Shown here: positions 46,724-54,214 of the stretch, one piece after another
Layout of the letters: each line of letters begins with the position of its first letter
How positions within the stretch are numbered: position 1 is the stretch's first letter
Origin: Sulfurimonas sp. HSL-3221
GTDB taxonomy: Bacteria; Campylobacterota; Campylobacteria; Campylobacterales; Sulfurimonadaceae
Length of the DNA stretch: 64,000 nucleotides
Reading direction: 5' to 3'
Assembly: GCF_021044585.1 (NCBI RefSeq)
Contig: NZ_CP087998.1
Coordinates: 1,364,001-1,428,000, forward strand
Made by a program: the position numbers and the translations under genes
Notes under the pieces: model-generated
Databases searched by the model: none
What the model saw: only the letters and a program-made list of their open reading frames with translations
Told to the model about the DNA's origin: nothing

Positions 46724-48049
46724 GTGAATATAATCATTGCGGGTGCGGGACGGGTCGGCTACCGCCTGGCGGGTACCCTTTCGCACCGCCACAACGTCAC
46801 CATCATCGACCAGAGACCCTCCGCGCTGCAGCAGCTGCAGGAGAGCATCGATGTCTTCACCATCGCTGGGAACATCGAAGACCCCGACACCTACGCCCCC
46901 CTGAAAAACCGCCGTTTCGACATCTTCATCGCCGTCACCGACAGCGACGAGGCGAACATCCTCTCCACCCTCATCGCCGGGGACGTGATCGTCGCCGACC
47001 GGAAGATCATCCGACTCAAGAACCCCTTCTTCGCCGACAGTACCATCGCCGGGAAGCTCGGGATCAGCACAGCCGTCTTCCCCTTCTCCTCCGCGGCAAA
47101 GTCCATCAGCGCGCTGCTGGATTTCCCCCAGGCGAACAACGTCAAATCCTTCATCTATACCTCCTTTCTTATGATCTCCGTATACGTGGACGACGCCCCC
47201 GAAGCGGGCATTCCGGTGTCGCATTTTATCCATGAAAGCTCCGTCGTCGTGGGGCTTGAGCGCGATAAACGCTTTATCCTCCCCGACAAAGAGACCATGC
47301 TGCAGCGGGGGGACCTCGTCTACTTCTTCGGCGCCCCCGACACCCTTCGCGCCTACTGCGCAAGGCTCAACCCCTCCCTCCCCGACCGGATCAGCCGCGT
47401 CGCCATTTTCGACGCCGACCTGCTGGGGCTGGAGATCGCCAAGGCGCTCATCCCCAAGGGGGTGCAGCTCAAGATCATCGACAACCAGATCGAGAAGTGC
47501 GAGCACGCCTCCGAGCTGCTGCAGGAGAAGGCGATGGTCATCAATAGCCACTACATTGAGCACACCCTCTTCGACAACGAACACGTCGGGCGCGCGGACA
47601 TGGCGATCTTCACGAGCAAGGAGGATGAGGAGAACATCATCCGTTCCCTCGAAGCGAAAGAGCGCGGCATCACGCGGACGGTGGCGATCAACAACGACCT
47701 CGAACGCTACCAGCTGATGCACTCCCTGGGCATCACCGCCATCCGAGGCCCGAAATCGAGCGCCTACTACACGATCCTGGAGAAGATCAGCTCCAGCTCC
47801 ATCATTTCCGAACGCCACTACTGCGGCGGCAAGGGGCTGATCTACTCGCGCAAGATCTTCCCCGATTCGCCGCTGCTGGAGAAGATGGTCAAACCGCCGA
47901 ACCCGAAACGATGCCGCTGTTTTCTCTTCCGCGACGGCATCCTGCTGCCCTGGGTGGCGAAACTGCAGCTGCACCGCGAAGACGTCCTGTTCGTTTTCGT
48001 CCATGCCGATAATGAAGAGGAGATCAAACAGTGGATCTACACACTCTGA
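46724..48049 (+). CDS. trkA: Trk potassium uptake regulator TrkA
   Basis: A 441-residue cytoplasmic NAD(H)-binding protein with two RCK-type Rossmann units. The first has IIAGAGRVGYRLAG near the N-terminus. The second starts about residue 220 (VAIFDADLLGLEIAKAL). It gates the TrkH potassium channel. The start is GTG at 46724. The trkH start lies 19 bases inside its end, so the two are coupled and stoichiometrically expressed. Confidence 0.92.
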   Translation: MNIIIAGAGRVGYRLAGTLSHRHNVTIIDQRPSALQQLQESIDVFTIAGNIEDPDTYAPLKNRRFDIFIAVTDSDEANILSTLIAGDVIVADRKIIRLKNPFFADSTIAGKLGISTAVFPFSSAAKSISALLDFPQANNVKSFIYTSFLMISVYVDDAPEAGIPVSHFIHESSVVVGLERDKRFILPDKETMLQRGDLVYFFGAPDTLRAYCARLNPSLPDRISRVAIFDADLLGLEIAKALIPKGVQLKIIDNQIEKCEHASELLQEKAMVINSHYIEHTLFDNEHVGRADMAIFTSKEDEENIIRSLEAKERGITRTVAINNDLERYQLMHSLGITAIRGPKSSAYYTILEKISSSSIISERHYCGGKGLIYSRKIFPDSPLLEKMVKPPNPKRCRCFLFRDGILLPWVAKLQLHREDVLFVFVHADNEEEIKQWIYTL

Positions 48050-49485
48050 TCAACAGCGCCAAGTTTATCAGTGCCATCGGCATTGGCCTGGCGCTCTTCT
48101 TTCTCATTCCCATCGGCACGGGCATCGTGTACGGCGAAAACATGGCGCCCTTCATCCGCTTCGACCTGCTCTTTTTTCTCTTCAACCTTGTCCTGTTCGC
48201 CGCCCTCTACCGCCGGCGGATGCGGATGACGGTCAAAAGCGCCATCTTTTCGGTTAACCTCGTCTGGATACTGCTCGGCATCGCCGGGGCCGTCCCCCTC
48301 TACATCTACACCGAGGCTACCTTCACCGAATCTTTTTTCGAAGCGATCAGCGGCTTTACGACAACCGGGGCGACGATTTACACGGAAATAGAGCACCTGC
48401 CCAAAAGCATCCTGATGCTCCGCAGCCTGATGCACTGGCTCGGCGGGATGGGGATCATCGTCCTGGGCGTGGGCCTGCTTTCGCTCATCAACCCGACCGG
48501 TTCCATGACGATGTTCCGGGCCGAATCCACCGGTGTGCAGCTGGAGAAGGCGACGCCGAAAATCAGGGATACGGCGCTGCGGCTCTGGGGGCTCTACCTC
48601 TTCTTTACCGCGGCGAACACCGTGCTGCTCCTCGCCGGCGGGATGAACCTTTTCGATGCCGTCAACCACGCCTTTTCGACGATCTCGACGGGGGGCTTTT
48701 CCACGCGCGACCTCTCAATGGGCTATTGGGACGACGCGCCCGTCATCCTCTGGACGACGACCTTTTTCATGATGCTTTCGGGAATCAACTTCCTCGCCCA
48801 CCTCAAAGCGGCCCGGGGCGACTTCAGCGGTTTCCGCGCCGAAGAGGTGCGGTGGTATCTCGGACTCTTCATCCTGCTCGCCTCCGTCCTCACCCTGGTG
48901 CACCTGGCCAACAGCGGCGACAGCATCGTCTACAGTACGACCCACGCCTTTTTCACCGTCGCCTCCCTGCTGACCACCACGGGCTTCGCGACGATCAACT
49001 ACGAGCTCTGGGGCGCCGTCCCCGTCGCGCTCCTGCTCATCGCCATGCTGCTCGGCGGCAACGCCGGTTCGACGGCGGGGGGGATGAAGATCATCCGTTA
49101 CGTCATCCTCTTCAAGAACCTGAAGTCCCAACTCAAACAGATCCTCCACCCCAATGCCGTCGTGGGGGTCTTCGTCGACCGCAAACCCGTCAGCAGCAAA
49201 GTCATCGGCAGCGTCAGCGGTTTCCTCTTCCTCTTTATCACCACCAACGTCCTGCTCACCTTCTACCTCTTTGCCCGCGGCTACGATGCGGTCACCTGCA
49301 TCAGTACCTCGATCGCCTGCGTCGGCAATATCGGGCCGGGCTTCGCCATGACGGGCCCCTCGGAGAACTTCCACTTCTTCAGCGGGATCGACAAAATGAT
49401 CCTCTCGGCGGCCATGATCATCGGCAGGCTGGAGTTCTTCACCGTCGTGCTGCTCTTTACCCGGGATTTCTGGAAACGCTATTAG
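48031..49485 (+). CDS. trkH: Trk potassium channel TrkH
   Basis: A 484-residue membrane protein with about ten transmembrane helices and four selectivity-filter-like loops (AISGFTTTGATIY, STISTGGFSTRDL, VASLLTTTGFATI, CVGNIGPGFA). It imports K+ under TrkA control. The GTG start at 48031 lies within the trkA reading frame end. Its stop overlaps the stop of the convergent gene at 49482. Confidence 0.93.
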   Translation: MDLHTLINSAKFISAIGIGLALFFLIPIGTGIVYGENMAPFIRFDLLFFLFNLVLFAALYRRRMRMTVKSAIFSVNLVWILLGIAGAVPLYIYTEATFTESFFEAISGFTTTGATIYTEIEHLPKSILMLRSLMHWLGGMGIIVLGVGLLSLINPTGSMTMFRAESTGVQLEKATPKIRDTALRLWGLYLFFTAANTVLLLAGGMNLFDAVNHAFSTISTGGFSTRDLSMGYWDDAPVILWTTTFFMMLSGINFLAHLKAARGDFSGFRAEEVRWYLGLFILLASVLTLVHLANSGDSIVYSTTHAFFTVASLLTTTGFATINYELWGAVPVALLLIAMLLGGNAGSTAGGMKIIRYVILFKNLKSQLKQILHPNAVVGVFVDRKPVSSKVIGSVSGFLFLFITTNVLLTFYLFARGYDAVTCISTSIACVGNIGPGFAMTGPSENFHFFSGIDKMILSAAMIIGRLEFFTVVLLFTRDFWKRY

Positions 49486-49997
49486 CGCTCCGGGGAGGTT
49501 TCGTTCCAGAGAGGGTTGTCCCGGTCGTCGGGATGAAGTTTCGCCTTCTCTTCCGGGTAGATATGCCAAAATGAGGCATCTATCGCCCCCTCTTCATAGG
49601 CTGCTTTTTTGTCATGGTAGAAGGGACACCACCAATTCTCCACAACTTTCACGAGATAGGCCAGGTAGCTAAAGAGCGCCACGCTCAAAGGGCAGTAGAG
49701 TTTGCAGTTGAAGAGCCAGAAGAAGCGGAAACGGCTGAGGTGCCATCGCGGCGTCTCCGTCGTGAAAGTGATCTGGTCACGCCGCGTATAGCGGTGGCTC
49801 TCCCAGTCGGGGACGAACTCCCGGTAGGTCTTCAGGTTCTCCGCCCCCATGATCCTGAGGTGCCAGCGCACCAGTATGACCGCCAGGACGGCGAAGGGGA
49901 TCGCCGCCAGGATCGGCAGGTAGATCAGCACCGCGCCCGGCACCGTTTTCCACATAGACTTCGTTTTATGATGCGCCCCGATTCTGACCCGTTCCAT
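49482..49997 (-). CDS. Hypothetical membrane protein
   Basis: A 171-residue protein with two hydrophobic segments, one near residues 18-42 (AVLIYLPILAAIPFAVLAVI) and one near 100-115. It is rich in Trp, Tyr and His, with two Cys residues (FNCKLYCPL, WWCPFYH). I recognise no family. The Cys/Trp-rich middle could bind a metal or sit at the membrane surface. It is convergent with trkH. Confidence 0.7.
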   Translation of the reverse strand: MERVRIGAHHKTKSMWKTVPGAVLIYLPILAAIPFAVLAVILVRWHLRIMGAENLKTYREFVPDWESHRYTRRDQITFTTETPRWHLSRFRFFWLFNCKLYCPLSVALFSYLAYLVKVVENWWCPFYHDKKAAYEEGAIDASFWHIYPEEKAKLHPDDRDNPLWNETSPER

Positions 49998-50111
49998 GCA
50001 ACTCCTTTATGGAGACCCAGTATAAACAAAGCGGCTTGAGGGAGTGATTAAGCTGCCGCTGCCGCGTTTTCTGTGAAAACACCAGACATCGTATCATCAG
50101 CCGTTTGGGAC

Positions 50112-50117
50112 TATAAT
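50112..50117 (+). promoter_or_regulatory. -10 promoter box for the methyltransferase at 50174
   Basis: TATAAT, 56 bases before the TTG start. AAGGAG follows at 50163-50168. Confidence 0.5.
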
Positions 50118-50173
50118 CGGTTTCATTGTTTCTGCATACCCGGGAGAACAGAGACATACGACAAGGAGACACA

Positions 50174-50749
50174 TTGGCGCAAAAAGACAAAGAGAAATGG
50201 GATAAGAAATACACCGAGATGGAGGGGCTGCTCGAACGCAGGCCACCGAGTGAACTGGTCAGTACACATGCCGCCGAAGCCCCTGGAGCGAGGGCCCTCG
50301 ACCTCGCCTGCGGCGGCGGGCGCCACAGCCTCTATCTGGCCGACGAAGGGTTTAGCGTCGATGCCGTCGACATCTCGACCGTCGCCCTTGCGGCCCTGCG
50401 GGAGAAGGCGGACCTTGACAAGATCAACCTGATCGAAGCGGACCTCGACACCTTCGTCCCCGACGCGGAAACCTACGACATGATTGTCAAAACGAACTTC
50501 CTCGACCGCGGCCTGATCGCACGGGCAAAAGCGGCGCTGAAACCCGGCGGTATCATGGTCCTGGAGACCTACATGGCCGATGCGGGCAACGAGAAGCCCG
50601 ACTCCAACCCGGATTTCCTGCTCCAGAAAGAGGAACTCAAATCGCTCTTCGGCGAGGGCTTCAGCGTCCTGGAGTACAAAGAGTTCTGGAACGAACCGCA
50701 CGAAAAATACCGCATGCGCAAACAGGCGATTGCCGTACGCAAAGATTGA
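50174..50749 (+). CDS. TehB-like SAM-dependent methyltransferase
   Basis: A 191-residue methyltransferase with motif I ALDLACGGGRHSLYLA, acidic FSVDAVDISTVAL, and a C-terminal region (LVLETYM-like MVLETYMADAG) resembling tellurite-resistance TehB enzymes. The substrate is unknown. I place the start at TTG 50174 with AAGGAG five bases upstream. An in-frame start at 50126 would include the leader. Confidence 0.78.
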   Translation: MAQKDKEKWDKKYTEMEGLLERRPPSELVSTHAAEAPGARALDLACGGGRHSLYLADEGFSVDAVDISTVALAALREKADLDKINLIEADLDTFVPDAETYDMIVKTNFLDRGLIARAKAALKPGGIMVLETYMADAGNEKPDSNPDFLLQKEELKSLFGEGFSVLEYKEFWNEPHEKYRMRKQAIAVRKD

Positions 50750-50755
50750 TCGCAG

Positions 50756-50761
50756 TATAAT
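50756..50761 (+). promoter_or_regulatory. -10 promoter box for the Cys-rich ORF
   Basis: TATAAT, 30 bases before the TTG at 50792. GGAGAGG (50781-50787) is the ribosome-binding site. Confidence 0.55.
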
Positions 50762-50791
50762 GGCGCAAGATTTTTGAACAGGAGAGGTTCT

Positions 50792-51121
50792 TTGAGAACA
50801 CCCAGAGGCTTCGGCAAGCGTTATTTCACCCTCGCTTCCATCCAGGCGCACAGCGTCGCGCCCGCGCAAAACGCCCTGCGTGTATGCCTCGAAACCTACG
50901 CCACCGTCCTGCAGCACGACCGTGAAAGCGACGAGGCGCCACCGGAAGAACCCCTGGAGGCCCTCACCTGTTTTGCCAGCGACAAGCCCTGCCACTGCGA
51001 CTGTTACTTTAGACGCCGAACCTTCCTGACCCTGCGCACCTGCCGCAAACCATCCGCCTGTACCTGCAACTGCCGATTTTACAGCTTCCGACGTACCGGG
51101 GTCCATCCGCCGTACCTCTGA
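50792..51121 (+). CDS. Small cysteine-rich protein, unknown
   Basis: A 109-residue reading frame with nine Cys residues, eight of them in the last 55 residues in two CxCxC clusters (PCHCDC, ACTCNC). It starts at TTG with a good GGAGAGG site and a TATAAT box. There is no signal peptide or recognised domain. The CxCxC pattern suggests metal binding. It ends 58 bases before metE, whose product needs zinc, so a link to metE expression or metal supply is possible. It could also be a chance ORF in GC-rich DNA. Confidence 0.5.
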   Translation: MRTPRGFGKRYFTLASIQAHSVAPAQNALRVCLETYATVLQHDRESDEAPPEEPLEALTCFASDKPCHCDCYFRRRTFLTLRTCRKPSACTCNCRFYSFRRTGVHPPYL

Positions 51122-51179
51122 TTTTTTCCATCCGACCTTAACAACAATCGAAAAAAGAAAAATATCAAAGGACAGACCC

Positions 51180-53531
51180 ATGTCAAAAAACTACGTCATC
51201 GGCTACCCCCGCATCGGGGAGAACCGCGAACTCAAGTTCGCACTGGAGAGCTACTGGAGCGGCAAAAGCGACCTTGCCGCCCTTGAAGCGTGCGCATCGA
51301 CACTGCGCCGCCGCCACTGGCAGGAACAGCAAGACGCCGGCATCGGCACGATCAGCTGCAACGACTTCAGCTTCTACGACGCGATGCTCGACACCTGTGT
51401 CCTGCTCGGCGCCGTCCCGGCCCGCTTCCGCAATATCGAAGACGACACCATCCGCTACTTCACCATGGCCCGCGGCGACAGCCAGCGCACCGCGATGCAG
51501 ATGACCAAATGGTTCAACACCAACTACCACTACATCGTCCCTGAGTTCGCGGCCACAGACGCCTTTGCACCGAACGCATCGAAAATCGTCGCCGAATACC
51601 AAGAGGCGAAGGCGGCGGGCATCACCCCGAAAATAAACCTCATAGGCCCCCTCACCTTCCTCGGCCTCGGCAAAAGCGTTGAGAAAAACTTTGACCGCTA
51701 CGCCCACTTCGATGCCGTTGTCGCCTGCTACGAAGCAGTGCTTACGGCCATCAGCACCCTCGACGACCTCGTCACCGTCCAGATCGACGAGCCGCTCCTC
51801 GTCACCGGGCCGGATGCCAAGACCCTGAGCCTGCTCAAACGGGCCTACGACCGGCTCGGCAGCACCGCGTCACAGGTGGAGATCATCGTCGCGACCTATT
51901 TCGAACACGCCTGCGAAGCCGTCGAAGTGCTCGCCCATACACCCATCAGCGGGATCGCCCTCGATTTCGTCCACGGCCCGCGCAACATGGAAGCGCTCGG
52001 CACCGTCGCCCAAAGCGGCAAAACGCTCATCGCCGGGGTGATCGACGGTCGCAACGTCTGGCGCAGCGACCTCGATGCCGTCGGCGACACCCTCGAGACG
52101 ATCGCGCAGACGGTGCCAAAATCCCTCATCGTTCCCGCCACCTCCTGTTCGTTGCTGCATGTCCCCTATTCGCTCGAAGCGGAAACGGCACTGGATGCGG
52201 AGGTCATACAGTGGCTCGCCTTCGCGAAGGAGAAACTGGCCGAACTGAACGTCGTCGCCAAACGCTTTACCGGGGCGGCGCTGGACGATGCGGAACTGAG
52301 CCTGATGCAACTCAGCCGGGAAGCGGTGCACACACGGCAATGTTCCCCGCGCATCCACGACGCCGCCGTACAGCAGCGCGTTGCATCGCAGACGGGGACG
52401 GAACGTACCGAGCCCTATGAAACACGGATCAAGGCCCAGCGCGAAGCGCTGCGCTACCCTCTGCTGCCGACGACGACGATAGGTTCCTTCCCCCAGACGC
52501 CGGAACTCCGTACGCTACGCCGGGACTTCAAACGTGGCGACATCGATGTACAGACGTACGACGCGGGCATCAAAGCCTACATCGACGACTGCATCGCCTT
52601 CCAGGAGTCGATCGGCCTTGATGTACTCGTGCACGGCGAGCCCGAACGCAACGATATGGTCGAGTACTTCGGCGAACAGCTCGCCGGCTTCGTTTTCAGC
52701 GCCAGGGGATGGGTCCAGAGTTACGGCAGCCGCTGCGTCAAGCCGCCGCTCATCTACGGCGACGTCAGCCGTCCCCTGCCGATGACCGTGGGCTGGACGA
52801 CCTACGCGCAGAGCAAAACTTCCAAGATCGTCAAAGGGATGCTCACCGGTCCCGTCACGATCCTCAACTGGTCCTTCGTCCGCGATGACCTGCCCCGTGC
52901 CGACGTGGCCGCGCAGATCGCCCTGGCCATCGGCGACGAGGTCGACGACCTCCAAAATGCCGGCATACGCATTGTCCAGGTGGACGAAGCGGCCTTCAAG
53001 GAGGGGTACCCGCTGCGCCGCGAGAACATCTCCGCCTACGAGACCTGGGCCGTCGACGCCTTCCGCCGCAGCGTCGCCTGTGCGCGCAGCGAAACGCAGA
53101 TCCATACGCATATGTGCTACAGCCAGTTCAACGACATCATCCATACCATCGAGGCGATGGACGCGGACGTCATCTCCATCGAGACCGCCCGCAGCGGCAA
53201 CGCCCTGCTGCGCATCTTCAAGGAGGTCGGCTACAAGCAGGAGGTGGGTCCCGGCGTCTACGACATCCACTCTCCCCGCGTCCCGCCGGTGGCGGAGATG
53301 GTCGTGCAGATCAACGCCCTGCTGGAGGTACTGCCCCAAGAGCAGCTCTGGATCAACCCCGACTGCGGCCTGAAAACCCGCAAATGGGAGGAGGTTAAAC
53401 CGAGTTTGGCCAACATGGTCGAAGCCGTCAGCGAGGTGCGCGCCGCATTTGACGCTATAATCGCATCCAAAAAAGGCGATGCAGCATGGACGAATCCCTC
53501 GAGATCCTCTACCGCGACGAGTGGCTTGTAG
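51180..53531 (+). CDS. metE: Cobalamin-independent methionine synthase
   Basis: A 783-residue MetE that transfers the methyl group of 5-methyl-tetrahydrofolate polyglutamate to homocysteine. The C-terminal catalytic half shows TIGSFPQTPELR, GEPERNDMVEYF, the zinc ligands in HTHMCYSQF, and the distal Cys in NPDCGLKTRKW. It is about 25 residues longer than E. coli MetE. The extra C-terminus (residues after AAFDAII) overlaps the promoter and start of the next gene by 46 bases, and looks like read-through into it. No cobalamin or SAM riboswitch is visible upstream. Confidence 0.95.
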   Translation: MSKNYVIGYPRIGENRELKFALESYWSGKSDLAALEACASTLRRRHWQEQQDAGIGTISCNDFSFYDAMLDTCVLLGAVPARFRNIEDDTIRYFTMARGDSQRTAMQMTKWFNTNYHYIVPEFAATDAFAPNASKIVAEYQEAKAAGITPKINLIGPLTFLGLGKSVEKNFDRYAHFDAVVACYEAVLTAISTLDDLVTVQIDEPLLVTGPDAKTLSLLKRAYDRLGSTASQVEIIVATYFEHACEAVEVLAHTPISGIALDFVHGPRNMEALGTVAQSGKTLIAGVIDGRNVWRSDLDAVGDTLETIAQTVPKSLIVPATSCSLLHVPYSLEAETALDAEVIQWLAFAKEKLAELNVVAKRFTGAALDDAELSLMQLSREAVHTRQCSPRIHDAAVQQRVASQTGTERTEPYETRIKAQREALRYPLLPTTTIGSFPQTPELRTLRRDFKRGDIDVQTYDAGIKAYIDDCIAFQESIGLDVLVHGEPERNDMVEYFGEQLAGFVFSARGWVQSYGSRCVKPPLIYGDVSRPLPMTVGWTTYAQSKTSKIVKGMLTGPVTILNWSFVRDDLPRADVAAQIALAIGDEVDDLQNAGIRIVQVDEAAFKEGYPLRRENISAYETWAVDAFRRSVACARSETQIHTHMCYSQFNDIIHTIEAMDADVISIETARSGNALLRIFKEVGYKQEVGPGVYDIHSPRVPPVAEMVVQINALLEVLPQEQLWINPDCGLKTRKWEEVKPSLANMVEAVSEVRAAFDAIIASKKGDAAWTNPSRSSTATSGL
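53456..53461 (+). promoter_or_regulatory. -10 promoter box inside the metE 3' end, for the TruC-like gene
   Basis: TATAAT, 25 bases before the ATG at 53486, lying within the last codons of metE. Confidence 0.5.
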
Positions 53532-54214
53532 CCGTAAACAAGCCCAGCGGGCTGCTCGTGCACCGCTCCTGGATCGATAAGGACGAGACGCGCTTCGCGC
53601 TGCAGCTCGTCCGGGACCAGATCGGGCAGTACGTCTATCCCGTCCACCGCCTCGACAAGCCTACTTCCGGCGTGCTGCTCTTCGCCCTCGATCCCGATAC
53701 GGCCCGCAAAGTCGGCGAGATCTTCGAAGCCGGGAGCGTCCGCAAGGAGTACCTCGCCGTCGTGCGCGGCTACATTGACGAAGGGGGCCGCATCGACTAC
53801 CCGCTCAAAGAGCTGCTCGACAAGATGACCGACGCGAAGGCGCGCACGGACAAAGAGGCCCAGGAAGCCGTCACGCTCTTTGAACGCCTCGCGACCGTCG
53901 AGCTTCCCATCCCCGTCGGGCGCTACCAGACCGCCCGCTACTCCCTGGTACGGCTGCGGCCCGAAACGGGGCGTAAACACCAGCTGCGGCGCCATATGAA
54001 ACACCTGCTGCACCCCATCGTCGGCGATACCAAATACGGCCGGACAGAGCACAACAACCTTTTCCGGGAACATTTCGGCTGCCACCGGCTGCTGCTCGCC
54101 TCGACGAAGCTCGAACTCCCCCACCCCGTCACCGGGGAGCCGCTCTGTATCGAGGCCACCGTCGGGGAGGTCTTCGCGAGCATTCTCACCGCTTTCGGCT
54201 GGGACGCTGAATAA
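53486..54214 (+). CDS. truC: TruC-like tRNA pseudouridine synthase
   Basis: A 242-residue RluA-family pseudouridine synthase. The catalytic Asp lies in HRLDKPTSGVLLFA, and the C-terminal RPETGRKHQLRRHMKHL motif is conserved. TruC modifies U65 of tRNA(Ile1) and tRNA(Asp). There is no S4 domain, and the length fits TruC rather than RluD. It starts inside the end of metE. Confidence 0.86.
   Translation: MDESLEILYRDEWLVAVNKPSGLLVHRSWIDKDETRFALQLVRDQIGQYVYPVHRLDKPTSGVLLFALDPDTARKVGEIFEAGSVRKEYLAVVRGYIDEGGRIDYPLKELLDKMTDAKARTDKEAQEAVTLFERLATVELPIPVGRYQTARYSLVRLRPETGRKHQLRRHMKHLLHPIVGDTKYGRTEHNNLFREHFGCHRLLLASTKLELPHPVTGEPLCIEATVGEVFASILTAFGWDAE

Follow-up and report, generated by a model that had tools for sequence, protein, structure and literature searches.

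The leader reading frame upstream of metE

The window, as we call the whole stretch of 64,000 nucleotides of Sulfurimonas sp. HSL-3221 DNA that was analyzed, carries a short TTG-initiated reading frame, hereafter the leader, which ends with a TGA at 51119–51121 and is separated by 58 nucleotides from the ATG of metE (Table 1). The identity of metE is certain from its family matches. A gene for a TehB-like SAM methyltransferase (50174–50749) lies immediately 5′ of the leader promoter; it was rejected as part of the leader system because, among the loci compared, such a neighbor stands beside the leader only in L001–L005, all from the same genus.

Table 1. Features of the leader–metE region, in window coordinates
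Feature	Position	Strand	Evidence
TATAAT −10 box (predicted transcription start ~50768)	50756..50761	+	Sequence
Shine–Dalgarno site of the leader, AGGAGAGG	50780..50787	+	Sequence
Leader peptide CDS, TTG start, 109 aa	50792..51121	+	ORF, searches for relatives, alignments, dN/dS
N-terminal module codons (residues 5–20), common to metE, btuB, and cbiM leaders	50804..50851	+	Alignments A1, A2, A5; codon variation
CHCDC motif (residues 67–71); His 38 residues before terminal Pro-Pro	50990..51004	+	Sequence, motif spacing
C-terminal motif FYSFRRTGVHPP (residues 96–107), presumed arrest sequence	51077..51112	+	Invariant G, P, P in alignment A1
G-poor, rut-like spacer from leader stop to metE Shine–Dalgarno site, without intrinsic terminator	51122..51166	+	Composition, fold, terminator scan
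metE Shine–Dalgarno site AAAGGA	51167..51172	+	Sequence
metE, B12-independent methionine synthase, presumed controlled gene	51180..53531	+	TIGR01371 (1017 bits), PF08267, PF01717

An earlier interpretation made from the letters alone (the sequence-only reading) had assigned 50756–51121 to the reading frame. The end of this interval holds, whereas 50756 belongs to the promoter and the coding start is the TTG at 50792, which we preferred over the TTG at 50774 (115 aa) because it has the best Shine–Dalgarno placement and because the N-terminal motif of the family starts there. The remaining elements that had been pointed out are present as claimed: nine cysteines (residues 32, 60, 67, 69, 71, 84, 90, 92, and 94) with two CxCxC clusters (CHCDC and CTCNC), a TATAAT box, and a GGAGAGG-type site. 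The TATAAT box at 50756–50761 is absent from the output of a sigma-70 scan of the window. The predicted 5′ untranslated region (UTR) of ~24 nucleotides leaves no room for a riboswitch, and an Rfam search of 48000–54000 returned no matches, in agreement with the earlier remark that none is found near metE. With the frame directly ahead of metE and no riboswitch present, the suggested action on metE is plausible. The leader stops two codons past its C-terminal motif.

Profile searches with the window leader yielded a best Pfam match to DUF4326 (E = 0.067), below the cut-off, and no NCBIfam match, and a PDB search with a profile of 25 relatives did not match the leader to any entry. We therefore rejected its assignment to a known domain, structure, or defence protein. 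The AlphaFold model (pLDDT 66, pTM 0.32) has no compact fold, with low-confidence helices at residues 9–45 and 71–85.

Conservation and genomic context of the leader family

Sequence searches identified relatives of the leader in 72 of 100 related genomes, and a profile built from 32 relatives (A3) matched 216 of 397 Campylobacterota genomes, representing 46 of 68 genera. dN/dS was below 1 in every one of the 703 usable pairs (1033 compared), with a median of 0.27, and no stop codon interrupts the frame in the loci aligned, so that the small protein postulated from the sequence is borne out and a chance reading frame could be rejected. All glycine codons (GGN), all six leucine codons, and both TCN and AGY serine codons occur at conserved positions; this freedom of synonymous codons, together with the weak fold of the region, led us to reject an RNA element misread as a reading frame. 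Judged from these comparisons, the leader is a conserved protein, with the peptide rather than the RNA under selection.

A pattern scan of 84,980 species, one genome per species, confirmed 198 relatives, among which metE leaders are favored because the patterns were derived from them. The 80 relatives that were kept come from records titled Sulfurimonas, Sulfurovum, Sulfurospirillum, Arcobacter and genera split from it, Sulfuricurvum, Epsilonproteobacteria, Helicobacteraceae, or Campylobacterales, and two are titled only “bacterium.” A metagenome-assembled contig with a metE leader (L130) is titled Helicobacter pylori PMSS1, probably wrongly, and at L166:1411-1871 (G066) the C-terminal portion of a metE leader occurs as a tandem pair with a stretch of N between the copies, which may be an assembly artefact. 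By the breadth of these matches the leader family is real and widespread, and no published description was found in a literature search that covered no bioRxiv preprints and only the smaller part of subscription papers.

The loci examined comprised the best-scoring matches (30 per search) and 21 genomes picked for weak matches; pooled, their 219 hits correspond to 173 distinct leaders, the set to which our distinct counts refer, an earlier pool of 185 hits having counted some leaders more than once. Of the distinct leaders, 121 lie ahead of metE, 31 ahead of btuB-like receptors, 9 ahead of the gene for CbiM, and 1 each ahead of another TonB receptor and an OprD-family porin; 8 make up the N-terminal part of a TonB receptor's own frame, and 2 lie at contig ends. 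At metE, a receptor (fusions included), or cbiM, 170 of the 173 are thus placed as a cobalamin-regulated leader would be, and linkage in cis of the family to the B12 regulon is, on this positional evidence, very probable. The porin gene (L206:363-1421, G371) follows a short, btuB-type leader and perhaps represents a further uptake route for B12 or cobalt.

In the first 50 loci, metE lies immediately 3′ of the leader except in a single group of eleven, which precedes TonB receptors, several of them followed by genes for BtuF (L040) or CobU (L036). The best NCBIfam match of the receptors is TonB-B12, at 259 bits in L036, 263 bits in L041, and 59–69 bits in L031/L183 and L040, all below the family cut-off; the receptor of L044 has no such score. 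Three short leaders precede CbiM, a cobalt uptake protein (Pfam E-values of 1e-16 to 1e-19), followed in L179 by CbiK. The genome from which the window derives encodes metH (165419–168874) and has a second leader copy (G000:C1:150432-150770) ahead of a TonB receptor that scores 59 bits against TonB-B12, far under the family cut-off. In four further genomes, the N-terminal module forms the N-terminal, signal-peptide-like part of a TonB receptor (L038:2698-4623, G098; L039:2224-4167, G063; L185:2586-4595, G391; L186:1258-3273, G095), in the latter two with metH directly or nearly directly upstream. These receptors suggest that the leader arose from, or became fused with, the signal region of a receptor.

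Among the 397 genomes, 269 encode metE and 179 metH. Profile A3 detected the leader in 127 of the 128 genomes that encode both enzymes, 43 of the 51 that encode metH alone, 45 of the 141 that encode metE alone, and 1 of the 77 that encode neither, an association with metH of p = 7e-56 (Fisher test, uncorrected for descent). This tabulation relies on A3 alone; profile A5 adds G065 and G280 among the metH-bearing genomes at E ≤ 1e-3, leaving 7 of 179 that match neither profile at that threshold. The association recurs within genera: G403 (genus g43) and G409 (g78) have both metH and the leader, and their congeners G091 and G446 (g43) and G293 and G375 (g78) have neither. One genome with both enzymes, G335, has no leader ahead of metE on inspection (L222, G335:C26); its metE has a short 5′ UTR and provides a natural negative case.

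Nearly all of the 45 leader-bearing genomes that encode metE alone are, in our reading, Campylobacter-like (f11), and 44 of the 45 lack a match to a B12-binding domain. The leaders at L165, L168, L177, L180, and L181 keep the C-terminal half with its Pro-Pro, mostly together with an HCxC motif, and are missing the N-terminal module. We read this as loss of a B12-specific half along with B12 use. Since leaders are kept where metH or a B12-binding domain is not, part of the leader either answers to something else or is a relic; these genomes make the strongest case for sensing of another signal by the C-terminal half.

Anatomy of the peptide and its mRNA

Leaders ahead of metE, btuB, and cbiM have in common an N-terminal GFGKxYFxLxxIxA motif, a Pro-Pro at the C-terminus shortly before the stop, or both. 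Long leaders have an N-terminal module with the consensus M(K/R)xPKGFGKNYFTLxxIxA, and for short leaders the consensus is MKHLRGYxRRYFSLAIIAMYSTLHKL; the module occurs in 99 of 121 metE leaders and is missing in some from metH-bearing, Sulfurimonas-type genomes. Pro-Pro is nearly universal (120/121 metE, 29/30 btuB, and 9/9 cbiM leaders), most often as VHPP (97 of 145 distinct leaders) and otherwise mainly as xHPP, xSPP, or xAPP; the proven arrest type, [RQH][AG]PP, was found in just 2 of the 145.

An HCxC-type motif is present in 105 of 121 metE, 10 of 30 btuB, and none of 9 cbiM leaders, and the median number of cysteines per leader falls to 1 and 0 in the latter two classes. The cysteine clusters emphasized in the sequence-only reading are thus conserved in the metE branch but sparse or lacking in the others. 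Its proposal of a metal-binding or metal-reporting protein is consequently unsupported as a general role, and the coupling of cysteine supply to metE fares no better, because the targets and the association with MetH favor cobalamin over zinc or cysteine; a thiol or metal input in addition to B12 may nevertheless exist, given the frequency of HCxC before metE. Attenuation through cysteine codons was rejected because of the few or absent cysteines in btuB and cbiM leaders, and methionine codon counting because internal methionines (mean 0.54) are absent from 71 of 121 metE leaders, the window leader among them.

The spacing of these elements is nearly constant. In 100 of 120 leaders the His of HCxC stands at a distance of 38 residues from the first Pro, and in 16 the distance is 35. 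In short leaders of ~50 residues, without HCxC, the Tyr of the YF pair stands 37–38 residues before Pro-Pro in 10 of 10 cases, and in a second, overlapping set of 30, four of which the YF pattern did not catch, the distance is 38 in 22 of 26, 39 in three, and 37 in one. The corresponding distance in 114 long leaders is 94–102 residues. The ribosome exit tunnel accommodates ~38 residues; one conserved element, HCxC or YF, would therefore be just emerging when Pro-Pro reaches the catalytic center. Much of this constancy is due to shared descent.

A TATAAT sequence occurs within 60 nucleotides upstream of 62 leaders, mostly 20–35 nucleotides before the start, which leaves little or no 5′ UTR for an aptamer. 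In several cbiM and btuB leaders a TATAAT box is only 5–9 nucleotides from the start, in L171, L176, L178, and L179 a TATAAT-like box stands about 6–9 nucleotides ahead of the ATG, and the short leaders are, judged by this distance, probably translated from leaderless mRNA. Downstream, 60 of the 101 distinct metE leaders are followed by a gap of 40–70 nucleotides before metE. These 60 spacers, excluding the last 14 nucleotides, consist of 52.5% A, 29.5% T, 15% C, and 2.9% G, with C exceeding G in 58; mean G content is 2.8%, versus 14.2% in 179 control upstream regions (Mann–Whitney p = 1.5e-23). The window spacer region has a fold z-score of −0.42 relative to shuffles and no terminator-like site, and attenuation by an intrinsic terminator was rejected there. 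Where btuB leaders are of the L031 type, their stop codon overlaps the start of btuB, so that translational coupling may take the place of Rho there.

A possible nascent-chain mechanism and its alternatives

Several known systems offer points of comparison. The Escherichia coli peptide TnaC (24 residues) undergoes Trp-dependent nascent-chain arrest and blocks Rho at the end of its leader; the small-molecule arrest logic is alike, but we saw no sequence relation to the leader. Cobalamin riboswitches (RF00174) act on metE, btuB, and the genes for transport of cobalt and synthesis of B12 and agree with the leader in targets and logic, but they are RNA, and none matches in the window region (48000–54000). 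The closest analogue is CruR (DUF2946) of Bordetella pertussis, a copper-responsive upstream ORF ahead of a TonB receptor; copper sensed through a CXXC motif, at a distance of 45 residues from the terminal RAPP, frees the arrested ribosome, and Rho then ends transcription in a stretch with more C than G (PMC9426467). The leader resembles CruR in being an upstream ORF with a thiol motif at a fixed distance before a C-terminal Pro-Pro, with TonB receptor targets and a C>G spacer. It differs in lacking a DUF2946 match, in having HCxC at 38 residues rather than CXXC and VHPP or xSPP rather than RAPP, in its targets (metE, btuB, and cbiM), and in its presumed signal, cobalamin. On this comparison, HCxC-38-VHPP/xxPP is analogous to CXXC-RAPP, albeit a different motif. 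CutF of Rhodobacter capsulatus is likewise an upstream ORF, with an N-terminal signal sequence and a Cys motif 45 residues before C-terminal prolines (a proline-rich motif), but copper there induces the downstream gene by way of a stem-loop that covers the Shine–Dalgarno site, and no sequence relation is seen; the opposite sign of a ligand effect is therefore possible (PMC9973294). ApdA, ApdP, and ApcA (RAPP/RGPP, RQH) are small upstream ORFs with a di-proline near the C-terminus (PMC12992588, PMC10987492, PMC10951233), of a type that is rare among the leaders, as given above. An EMBO J. survey describes many RAPP-type upstream ORFs before TonB receptors, and its main text does not mention cobalamin, B12, BtuB, or methionine synthase (PMC12992588). 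A translated ORF also precedes metE of Mycobacterium tuberculosis, within a B12-controlled leader, but there a B12 riboswitch does the sensing (PMC11260477). Leader peptides of Campylobacterota include LeuL, TrpL, and MetL of Campylobacter jejuni, which are codon-counting attenuators of 20–28 aa, unlike the window leader; MetL precedes metBA and has been reported from C. jejuni and close species only (PMC3847290, PMC11955535).

Conservation of the leader, its position before metE, btuB, and cbiM, the Pro-Pro near the stop with its ~38-residue spacing, and the composition of the spacer are the observations to be explained; from these, and by analogy with CruR, we infer an arrest, a ligand, the sign of its effect, and a Rho step. 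We consider it likely that the leader is a cis-acting nascent-chain arrest peptide of the cobalamin regulon, similar to CruR in operation and tuned to cobalamin. As the first part of the metE mRNA to be translated, the leader would, when B12 is short, stall its ribosome at the final Pro-Pro, and the stalled ribosome would shield the unstructured, G-poor RNA past the stop and keep Rho off, so that metE, btuB, or cbiM would be made. Plentiful cobalamin would act on the chain leaving the tunnel, at the N-terminal module and/or HCxC, and release the arrest, whereupon termination by Rho would shut off the uptake genes together with the B12-independent enzyme.

Arrest at Pro-Pro is probable and the likelier part of this scheme. 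Direct recognition of cobalamin by the nascent chain comes close to an even chance without quite reaching it, and the least certain elements are this binding, its sign, and the choice between Rho and translational coupling. The broadest proposal, that such leaders are phylum-wide sensors of cobalamin itself, recognizing it within the ribosome or where the chain leaves it, that have taken over the riboswitch regulon, with HCxC as an optional second sensing element of the metE branch, is tentative and, given what the sequences suggest, somewhat more doubtful than not. Against the scheme as a whole, the terminal motif is not of the proven RAPP/RGPP type, and EF-P can relieve stalling at plain Pro-Pro; the scarcity of G in the spacers could have no other function than to leave the metE start free of structure. 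Also to be set against it are the leaderless metE of G335, the 7 metH-bearing genomes without a profile match, the Sulfurimonas-type metE leaders that lack the N-terminal module, the share of common descent in the constant spacing, and the low TonB-B12 score of the receptor in the window's own genome.

The retention of a metE leader in Campylobacter-like genomes without metH also weighs against cobalamin and, with the C-terminal half kept and no B12-binding-domain match in 44 of the 45 metE-only leader genomes, is what commends a different reading, in which the HCxC/Pro-Pro half senses the status of, or demand for, methionine, SAM, or homocysteine and btuB and cbiM are coupled because MetH needs B12. 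This is unlikely, as cbiM leaders and short btuB leaders dispense with the HCxC half and retain the N-terminal module, and as methionine codon counting finds so little methionine to count. A dual input, with the N-terminal module answering to B12 and the C-terminal half to something else, would fit both patterns. The same module raises the question of export: a basic n-region followed by YFxLAAIxA, and the identity of the motif with the N-terminus of TonB receptors in G098, G063, G391, G095, and others, would suit a Sec signal sequence derived from the btuB signal peptide, making the leader an export-dependent monitor comparable to CutF. We regard this as rather unlikely, because MetE is cytoplasmic with no evident need for export, because the hydrophobic segment is short and in many cases includes a Gln, and because more than a few metE leaders (all but 99 of 121) do without the module.

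Sensing of a metal (Co, Zn, or Cu) or of redox state by the Cys/His cluster, with linkage to B12 genes arising through cobalt or the sensitivity of MetE, would account for the prevalence of HCxC in metE leaders, mostly 35–38 residues from Pro-Pro, a spacing that recalls the one described for CruR (PMC9426467), and CbiM does import cobalt. It is nonetheless quite improbable, since the cysteines all but disappear from cbiM and btuB leaders and neither zinc nor copper accounts for btuB, cbiM, and metE jointly. Least of all do we favor a free-standing, trans-acting small protein that merely adjoins metE; conserved coding sequence is what one would expect of it, but the strict placement before metE, btuB, or cbiM, the existence of 50-residue versions, the lack of a compact fold in the predicted model, and the occurrence within one genome of separate copies for each target operon make it very improbable.

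Should the preferred reading, a cobalamin-tuned arrest peptide, be correct, the leader would be the peptide counterpart of a riboswitch, a large organic cofactor would join the short list of nascent-chain ligands, and B12 control would be explained in members of the Campylobacterota such as Sulfurimonas, Sulfurovum, Arcobacter, and Sulfurospirillum; the natural series of 50- and 110-residue leaders, with and without HCxC or the N-terminal module or fused to receptors, could then show how a sensor of this kind is put together. Control by B12 is nearly always ascribed to an RNA aptamer, and in other bacteria genes of this kind are usually switched by RNA. In this phylum, nearly devoid of the cobalamin riboswitch, a conserved peptide stands in exactly that place: RF00174 was found in none of the 100 relatives and in 3 of another 80 genomes, which encode metH, with 8 of 14 controls positive in both searches, although searches over 40 genomes used stricter filters, with which weak matches are lost. 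The sole riboswitches in these 180 genomes are L217 (G410:C89:242-417), L218 (G421:C1:1925658-1925859), and L219 (G412:C4:90838-90970). No gene was identified immediately 3′ of one of the three; the other two precede a gene for a CobN-like chelatase, in genomes that also have metE leaders, and where both are present, peptide and RNA may share out the regulon.
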